A stretch of DNA of 64,000 bases, taken from positions 21,925,725 to 21,989,724 of the forward strand of contig NC_056553.1 in assembly GCF_910596095.1 (NCBI RefSeq). The letters run 5' to 3'. The position numbers and the translations under genes were made by a program. Positions 59,089 through 61,415 of this stretch are shown piece by piece. Position 1 is the stretch's first letter; each line of letters opens with the position of its first letter. The notes below the pieces were generated by a model. The model made no database searches. It was given only the letters and a program-made list of their open reading frames with translations, and had not been told where the DNA came from. This DNA is from Thunnus maccoyii. Lineage: Eukaryota; Chordata; Actinopteri; Scombriformes; Scombridae.

Positions 59089-61245
59089 TCACACTCTCAG
59101 GCGTTTCTTTGGTGGAGTCAGGCTGCTGCTGCTGCTACTGCTGCTGCTCTCTTCTTCAGCAGCCTTCCTCTTCATCCTCTCCCTCTGAGTCTTTGCACAC
59201 TGTGTTGATTGTTTGGTAAACCTGCAGAGGACTGACATGAGAGTGTGGCCGTCTGCAGTGTAGTCGGTCAGTCTCCAGCGGTTCATCAGCTCCGTGTTCT
59301 CAGAGCTGTACACAGGGGAGATGACTCTGGTGATGGTTCTGCCATCCAGCTCCAGGTGGTGGACGCAGTTTCTGCGGTCGCCCCTCACGGCTGCAAGATC
59401 GGCCTTCTCAGGAAGAACTGGAGTCAGCACAGTTTGAGGAGAAGAGCCGGAGCGTGCAGTGGGCGCCATTATACCTGATGGTCCTTCCATTAGAGGAGAC
59501 AGAGCAGTATTCTCCCTCCGCTCCTGCTCGATATGTTGGAAGGGTGTTGACAGCACACACGAGCGGAAAGATCCTCTGTATGCAATGAAAGGGAACTTCT
59601 TAGAGCCTGTGATGAGGTTGTGATACAGCCTCAGGATGGACTCTCTCATGGACTCTATGTTTACGCTGCTCACAGGACGGTTCCTCAAGTTTGTTACAAA
59701 CATCTGAAGGATTGGTGAAGGCAGTGGCAGGTCACCTACATGGAAAGAAAAACAAGGAACACATTAGTCACTCTAGTTAGGACATGATGGGACTCATTAC
59801 AGCCTATATTCATCTATGAAAAAACACAGTTTGCTTCTTTTTACATAGATACACTTCAAGGTTCACAGCACGACTTATTGTGGAAAACGTTCAGATTATT
59901 CATGTGGGCCGAGCTCAGCACAAATGATGCAAACTCTTCTTTGTTTCAGAAATGCTTAAAATATTAAACAGCTGTGAATGCAGTCCATGCTCTGCTGTTA
60001 GATGTTGGCACTAGGTACATAAGTGACACACGAATTAAACACCATTCAGATATCCTTCAGATCTGCTCCTCTTACAATTAAATATTACAAATGGTGTCTG
60101 TTTCATTTCTATGTTTTTATTGACATGACATTTAAAATCAGATTGAAGATGAATGTGCTGCTTTCACTGTGAGGCTGCAGTTGTGGTCTGATATTATTCA
60201 TAAGCCAGATTTGAATTAAAAACCTAAAAAAGTAGTGTGTTTTTCTAGTATTTACAAGCACATATGCTGACTGGTGTGACCTGTGTGCTGTGCAGAGACT
60301 TAACAGTGATCTAGCTCCATGTTTCAAGCAGCCTATAACTACAGTCCATGTCAAATTATAAAAATTGAAGACAAGTCATTATTATTTTATATCTTAATTT
60401 GACATACTGTATGCACACAATATGGCATATTTTATGCATCTGGAGCACACAAAAGATCATCCTGGAGAGCTCTGTACACCTGAGAGTTATGAACAGACAT
60501 AACTTTTCTTATAAATCTGCAACAACACTGATCTATCAGTGCCTGTCTGAGGAAATCCAGATGCTTTAAAAGGCTGAATATGATCCCACTGAGCTTTGAA
60601 TTTATTAACTTGATGCTTTAACACCTCTGGATATATTTCAATCCAGCATCAACAATCAAAACCTTCAAACTCAGTCAGCACATACAAAGAACGGGCCTCG
60701 GGTTGACTACACTGACGTCAGACGTCAGTCTCCGGCCGGTTCTAATACCTGACGTCGTCTCCATGGCGCCTGCAGCATCACAACTTTTAGCATTTTCCAA
60801 AAAACGGCCCAGTCGCCATCTTTGCCCTATACTTTCAATGTTATGCTCGACGACCCTGCACCCCCTCAAAAAACTGTTTTTCCCAAATAATACATTAATA
60901 TTCATACTTATTCCACCTGTCACGCGCACACTAATGAAATCCATCGTCTTTAATCATTTTACACCGAAATAAAAAGTTAAAGCAGGTTTCATGTCTTGAT
61001 TGAAAACTGTGGAAATTTTCCCCCAAACAAAACCAAATAATTCATATTTATAGGCTAAATATGATGTTAATTGATTTATTATTTAATTGATAATATTATA
61101 CTCTGCTCTTTTTGATCATTATATAGATCAAACATGTTCAAATGAGCAGTTCAGTGGTGCTCTGTGTTTTACCATAGCGGCAATCCAAACGGAGGATGCC
61201 TGTGGTCAGCAAGTGGATCTCACGGCCTGAGCCAGTAGAGGCCAT
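59089..61245 (-). CDS. Two-exon gene for an unrecognised 239-residue protein
   Basis: Exon 1 coding part is 61245-61173 and exon 2 is 59735-59089. The intron of 1437 bp (61172-59736) has donor TATG|GTAAAA and acceptor TTTCCATGTAG|GTGAC. Exon 1 leaves one base and exon 2 supplies two, restoring a Gly codon. The summed coding length is 720 bases including TGA. The ATG has purine at -3 and G at +4. The N-terminal part (MASTGSGREIHLLTTGILRL) and the exon 2 start (DLPLPSPILQMFVTNLRN) read as a compact globular region. The C-terminus has a basic RERMKRK, an acidic EEE plus nine Ser (from an AGC-type trinucleotide repeat) and PPKKRLRV, which looks like a nuclear localisation signal. No catalytic motif or known family is recognised. 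The stop lies two bases from the opposing repeat ORF. Gene reality is well supported by phase and promoter; function is unknown. Confidence 0.75.
60713..60756. promoter_or_regulatory. Three clustered CRE-type motifs in the intron
   Basis: A perfect TGACGTCA (60713-60720) is followed directly by GACGTCA (60721-60727) and by TGACGTC (60750-60756). The surrounding segment, to about 60870, is CpG-containing, unlike the AT-rich intron. It could be an enhancer, an alternative promoter or part of an old inserted element. Confidence 0.4.
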
Positions 61246-61308
61246 TTTTTCCACATTCAACAGGTGCTGTCTCACTTCCAGATGTCTACAGTTGTTTATT
61301 TCATTCAG

Positions 61309-61322
61309 GGTTTTCACTTTTC
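61309..61322 (-). promoter_or_regulatory. IRF/PRDI-like motif in the 5' leader
   Basis: The minus strand reads GAAAAGTGAAAACC, which contains AAGTGAAA, the core bound by interferon regulatory factors. It lies between the predicted start of transcription and the ATG. One motif match is weak evidence for interferon control. Confidence 0.3.
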
Positions 61323-61408
61323 AACGAATCTCTCAGCTGAAGAGTTTCAAGAGTTCAGCTCCTGTCAGCGCTCAGGTGCAGAAATGAAGATGGAATTAAG
61401 GGCTCTGC

Positions 61409-61415
61409 TTTTATA
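61409..61415 (-). promoter_or_regulatory. TATA box of the two-exon gene
   Basis: CCTATAAAAGCAG on the minus strand, with TATAAAA at 61415-61409. A start of transcription about 25-30 bases on (near 61382) would give a leader of about 135 nt. The leader holds two upstream ATGs: a two-codon frame and a 16-codon frame overlapping the main start in another register. Confidence 0.6.

Follow-up and report, generated by a model that had tools for sequence, protein, structure and literature searches.

Gene anatomy

Does the minus strand between positions 59,089 and 61,415 of this Thunnus maccoyii DNA carry a real gene, and if so, does that gene stand alone? The window (the whole 64,000-nucleotide stretch analysed here, C21:21925725-21989724) was compared with its own genome, 782 Mb in 54 contigs. 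A preliminary description, made from the letters of the window, had put forward a two-exon gene of no familiar family. When we went through the window sequence, we found each of its parts in place, from the TATAAAA box, leader and ATG to the 73-base exon, GTAAAA donor, 1437-bp intron, AG acceptor and 647-base exon ending in TGA, with phase-1 joining and a total of 240 codons:

61409..61415, minus strand: TATAAAA box of promoter 1; five of five copies carry one, 157-170 nt 5′ of the ATG
61246..61408, minus strand: 5′ leader region, alignable among the five copies
61173..61245, minus strand: coding exon 1, 73 nt, MASTGSGREIHLLTTGILRLDCRY plus the first base of the next codon (phase 1)
59736..61172, minus strand: intron, 1437 nt, acceptor TTTCTTTCCATGTAG/G (slash, splice site)
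59089..59735, minus strand: coding exon 2, 647 nt, to TGA, with a Ser/Glu-rich tail and a PKKRLRV nuclear-import-like end

The ATG lies at 61245 on the minus strand, 170 nt from the TATAAAA box, and the TGA at 59089; joined, the exons make 720 nt, that is 239 residues and the stop. Two upstream ATGs occur in the leader, one opening the two-codon frame ATGAAATAA and the other, GAATGTGGAAAAAATGG, out of frame and 11 nt 5′ of the start codon. The leaders of the copies on C5 and C1 described below lack this out-of-frame ATG, and one of them (C1b) has a different upstream ATG. No AATAAA was found within 2.6 kb 3′ of the stop, where a single ATTAAA occurs at 57024.

Copies in the genome and selection

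When the exon 2 product was searched against the genome, six matches were returned, namely the window itself, an identical inverted copy, three diverged copies and one remnant. The copy with the identical coding sequence lies about 36 kb away on the opposite strand of C21, at 22020.8 kb, in the second arm of an inverted duplication:

55352..63107, no strand assigned: inverted-duplication arm; other arm at C21 ~22016-22025 kb

The diverged copies, at C5:29.96M, C1:15.122M (C1a) and C1:15.137M (C1b), share 61-63% protein identity with the window product. Exon 1 and the leader were located upstream of every full copy, and all five have in common the TATAAAA, ATGGCCTC, an exon 1 of identical length, phase and GTAAAA donor, the AG acceptor and the PKKRLR end, with introns of 1437, 1435, 1177, 1244 and 1258 nt; their frames, all intact, encode 239, 239, 231, 231 and 231 residues. 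Aligned as proteins, the C5 and C1 products show one gap of 1 residue and one of 7 relative to that of the window; the alignment of the introns has many irregular gaps. The phase agreement across the intron, which the preliminary description had taken to be more than coincidence, thus recurs with the same anatomy and an intact frame in all five complete genome copies, the window's included, and as far as the comparison of paralogues reaches the proposed gene model is correct to the base. What has to be given up is the idea of a single hidden gene, as the genome has no fewer than five intact copies, which probably form part of a wider superfamily.

Two remnants were also seen. At C1:19163.6k (L012:3602-3782), the leader is fused directly to the C-terminal coding part, the ATG and the greater part of the gene being lost, while at C19:3.819M (L019:3407-4497) the family promoter and leader stand without recognisable coding sequence.

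Using a codon alignment built from the protein alignment, we obtained Nei-Gojobori dN/dS values of 0.386, 0.482 and 0.460 for the window against C5, C1a and C1b, and of 0.271, 0.274 and 0.192 for C5 against C1a, C5 against C1b and C1a against C1b, respectively. Fisher tests on rounded counts, carried out for four of the six non-identical pairs, gave P values of 5.9e-8 (window-C5), 4.3e-5 (window-C1a), 2.1e-5 (C5-C1a) and 0.0039 (C1a-C1b). Between the inverted arms, the coding sequence shows 0 differences in 717 positions and the intron 20 in 1432 (coding vs intron, P 4.4e-4), with 2/164 in the leader, 23/991 in the 5′ flank and 7/160 in the 3′ flank. That the arms do not differ in coding sequence may be due in part to local, exon-limited gene conversion and not to selection, but such conversion does not account for the dN/dS values. 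Since intact copies with the same anatomy occur together with dN/dS of 0.19-0.48, we conclude that purifying selection acts on a gene family here and that the frame is not due to chance. Judged by these sequence comparisons, the feature is very probably a genuine protein-coding gene belonging to a multi-copy, rapidly evolving family of this fish genome. The family grows and decays through duplication at the DNA level, in tandem, inverted and dispersed forms.

A conserved block within the intron

The intron contains a conserved block with the following elements:

60668..61003, minus strand: conserved intronic block, candidate second, TATA-less promoter; 77-80% identical to the C5/C1 copies
60806..60823, minus strand: core AAAGATGGCGACTGGGCC, which we take to be YY1/TISU-like; exact 18-mer at 11 places in 782 Mb
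60749..60764, minus strand: candidate alternative first coding exon, ATGGAGACGACGTCAG/GT, METTS plus phase 1; CCATGG start and phase-1 donor in five of five family copies
60713..60727, minus strand: paired sites TGACGTCTGACGTCA, presumably CRE-like; GACGTCTGACGTCA retained in five of five copies

The identity of the block with its counterparts in C5, C1a and C1b (80, 79 and 77%, respectively) compares with 75, 75 and 74% in DNA matches that span the greater part of exon 2. In the genome, the block has nine matches, of which five are long and lie at the family copies and four are partial (three on C13, one on C19); the intronic cores of C12 and C17 were reached only through the 18-mer. The reversed 18-mer, taken as a control, has no exact place in the 782 Mb. 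When up to two mismatches are allowed, the core has 157 matches against 8 for the control, so that near variants are common.

All five family copies hold AAAGATGGCGACTGGGCC, CCATGGARACGACGTCAG/GT and GACGTCTGACGTCA, and in each the next donor after the CCATGG start closes an exon of 16 nt that ends in phase 1, as exon 2 requires. This organization suggests METTS as a candidate second first exon behind a TATA-less promoter. The TATA promoter would produce the first exon MASTGS..., the YY1/CRE-type promoter inside intron 1 would produce METTS..., and both would be spliced in phase 1 onto the same exon 2. We put forward a product made from two alternative first exons tentatively, at slightly under an even chance. 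The chances are even that the block acts solely as an enhancer or as the promoter of a non-coding RNA, the METTS exon being nonexistent. Conservation of the block on either side of the candidate exon fits this second explanation, as does the fate of the exon elsewhere, the ATG frame being lost by an in-frame stop in all three C13 loci and the donor missing in C19. It is harder to reconcile with the exon lengths, which, with a donor present, equal 1 modulo 3, as exon 2 needs, in 10 of the 11 loci: 16 nt in the five family copies, 52 in C12 (to a phase-1 donor) and in the three C13 loci, and 64 in C17 (likewise to a phase-1 donor). As these matching lengths represent few independent events, the support that they lend to the METTS exon is modest.

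Compared with TISU/YY1-type TATA-less promoters, the intronic block is alike in having a sense AAGATGGCG core that is followed by a CCATGG start and a donor. It differs in that its core is not an exact match to TISU.

A probable superfamily

The 11 exact places of the 18-mer are the five family copies, three loci on C13 and one each on C12, C19 and C17. At C12:6.30M, C19:22.22M and C13:24.03/25.22/25.61M (C13a-c), the core lies within the introns of putative two-exon genes, in which an exon 1 of 73 nt (C12, C19) or 79 nt (C13a-c) ends in phase 1 at a GTAAGA donor and is followed by a single second exon. The two-exon, phase-1 anatomy with an intronic core is shared by all five; as these loci were chosen by the core, its presence there is not independent evidence. 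They resemble the window gene in the place and sense of the intronic core, the GTAA(A/G) donor, an HLL in exon 1 with an acidic residue at the first or second position ahead of it, and basic KR-rich clusters in the C-terminal half of the product. In contrast, their products are acidic, Pro-rich and 300-439 residues long (439, 372 and 300 in C13a-c, 405 in C12 and 314 in C19; an alternative acceptor in C13b and C13c would yield 317 and 245), and similarity in exon 2 is undetectable. The C17 locus has exon 1 and the core, and no exon 2 was found there. Two relatives of the C12 gene occur on C8 and C15; that on C8, which was found by its protein, lacks the core and has an early stop in exon 2, and the C15 frame stops after 78 codons.

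The coding part shows little resemblance between the groups. With hhalign, the window group and the other group could be aligned over residues 1-26 only (E 0.02, probability 2.3). In DNA comparisons of the leader and exon 1, two of the 15 pairs, both involving C17, scored better than all 300 shuffles; the score of the window against C13a was reached by 6 of 300 shuffles and those of the remaining 12 pairs by at least 27.

A further resemblance lies beyond the stop codon:

57753..58946, minus strand: tandem repeat beyond the stop, unit of 87 bp (29 codons), probably in the 3′ UTR or flank; unit core resembles repeats 3′ of the C12, C13a and C13b genes

When the 3′ repeats of the window and of the inverted copy were compared with those of C12, C13a and C13b, we found matches in the same orientation, with lengths of ~50-65 nt at 77-83% identity and, in one case, 169 nt at 69%. 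C13c has a 20-nt match only, and no such repeat was found at C5, C1a, C1b, C17 or C19. We consider that the window family probably belongs to a wider superfamily, because similarity around the core extends over 52-88 nt at 78-85%, because the core always sits at the corresponding position, and in the same sense, of a phase-1 intron that follows a short HLL exon and, for C12, C13a and C13b, because of the 3′ repeat.

Repeats and neighbouring features

Several frames of the 87-bp repeat, from both strands, stay open for hundreds of codons, and the copy number of the repeat varies between the inverted arms, with ~6.2 in the other arm and 12 overlapping copies listed in the window. Farther 3′ of the gene, at 56100-57250, diverged units recur 142-185 bp apart, without clear structure in the array; such units also occur 3′ of the C5/C1 copies, at ~64-82% identity.

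Five of the 146 non-exact core matches were retrieved, and all were found in another dispersed repeat that shares a 17-mer (16/17 in two of them) with the AAAGATGGCGACTGGGCC core and little else. These members (L058-L062, on C10, C1 twice, C6 and C3) are 80-94% alike and hold CAAGATGGCGAC(T/G)(G/T)GGCC, TGACGT-like sites and GGCGTCTTGC(A/T)C, the last of which resembles the 3′ repeat of the window gene. Among the core matches listed, several lie within 1-2 Mb of contig starts.

Elsewhere in the window, tRNA-like genes occur at 52939-53020, 54096-54177, 54398-54471 and 63943-64000, three of them called tRNA-Ser with anticodons CGA, AGA and TGA, and similar tRNA-Ser DNA lies near the other inverted arm (L010:3885-3956). 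Judged by eye, an open frame at 16825-17217 is similar to a long one at L034:5858-6892 that we take to be a LINE-type retroelement fragment.

Mobile element or pseudogene?

The unit might be cargo or an accessory gene of a transposable element, spread by transposition, since copies with flanking DNA are found on several contigs, the remnants at C1:19163k and C19:3819k could be read in this way, and the 17-mer core also occurs in a separate dispersed repeat. Yet the copies retain their introns, five are intact, and they are arranged in tandem and inverted as well as dispersed. For the one copy in which we looked at the ends, C5, the unit ends without a terminal inverted repeat (score 8, equalled by 137 of 300 shuffles), and in the collections searched the window protein shows weak matches only and no homology to transposases or viral proteins. 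We therefore regard transposition as improbable. More improbable still is a decaying pseudogene family that is intact in appearance only, a notion to which the same two remnants, the early stop of C8 and the short C15 frame could be fitted, given five of five full copies with open frames, dN/dS well under 1 and inverted arms without coding change. A genuine gene family under selection is the reading that we retain below.

The protein product

The window protein matched no Pfam family above the gathering score, and the four family members compared with Pfam gave only PF09691, in one member, at E 0.054. Searches of PDB and PHROGs gave no match that clearly rose above noise, in agreement with the earlier remark that the product has no familiar domain, and no convincing relative of the window protein was found in the phage and IMG/VR collections. 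The KKRLRV-type tail pointed out in the same description is well conserved, KKRLR being invariant in the four distinct sequences aligned. The AlphaFold2 model is poor overall, with a mean pLDDT of 51.5 and N-terminal helices below 50. It places strands at exon-2 residues 123-179, with pLDDT of 71-76 in the blocks from 121 to 170 and of 56 in 171-180, and the structural description that it allows is a weak one. On balance, we favour a small protein of the nucleus, with a beta-meander predicted and a Ser/Glu-rich tail that closes with an import signal of the PKKRLRV type. Its role can be guessed at as nuclear binding or regulation where copy number matters, for example in the germ line or early embryo.

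Biological meaning

Among fishes and other animals, lineage-restricted (orphan) multigene families consist of short two-exon genes that have no recognisable domain, whose proteins change fast and whose copies are born and die. The window family, which may likewise be lineage-restricted, as the preliminary description proposed, is similar in being short, two-exon, without a recognisable domain and fast-changing, with copies gained and lost; it differs in that its non-coding intron block is conserved to the same degree as the coding exon, or slightly above it. As an uncharacterised multi-copy gene, it is an ordinary kind of thing; the regulatory intron is unusual and the probable superfamily interesting. 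The case shows that inspection of raw sequence can correctly identify a short two-exon gene with no known domain, and that within-genome paralogues and selection can then lend it strong support.

Across the superfamily, protein sequence seems to have been kept less well than the anatomy of regulation and splicing. It is conceivable, though we think it unlikely, that a chassis made of leader, short exon 1, phase-1 intron with YY1/CRE promoter and alternative exon, and sometimes the 3′ repeat, has been reused genome-wide for very different second exons. If this were true, new nuclear proteins would arise by replacement or radical divergence of exon 2, with no change of promoter, start or splice phase, and the origin of orphan genes would become testable as a choice between an exon 2 that diverged and one that was exchanged.
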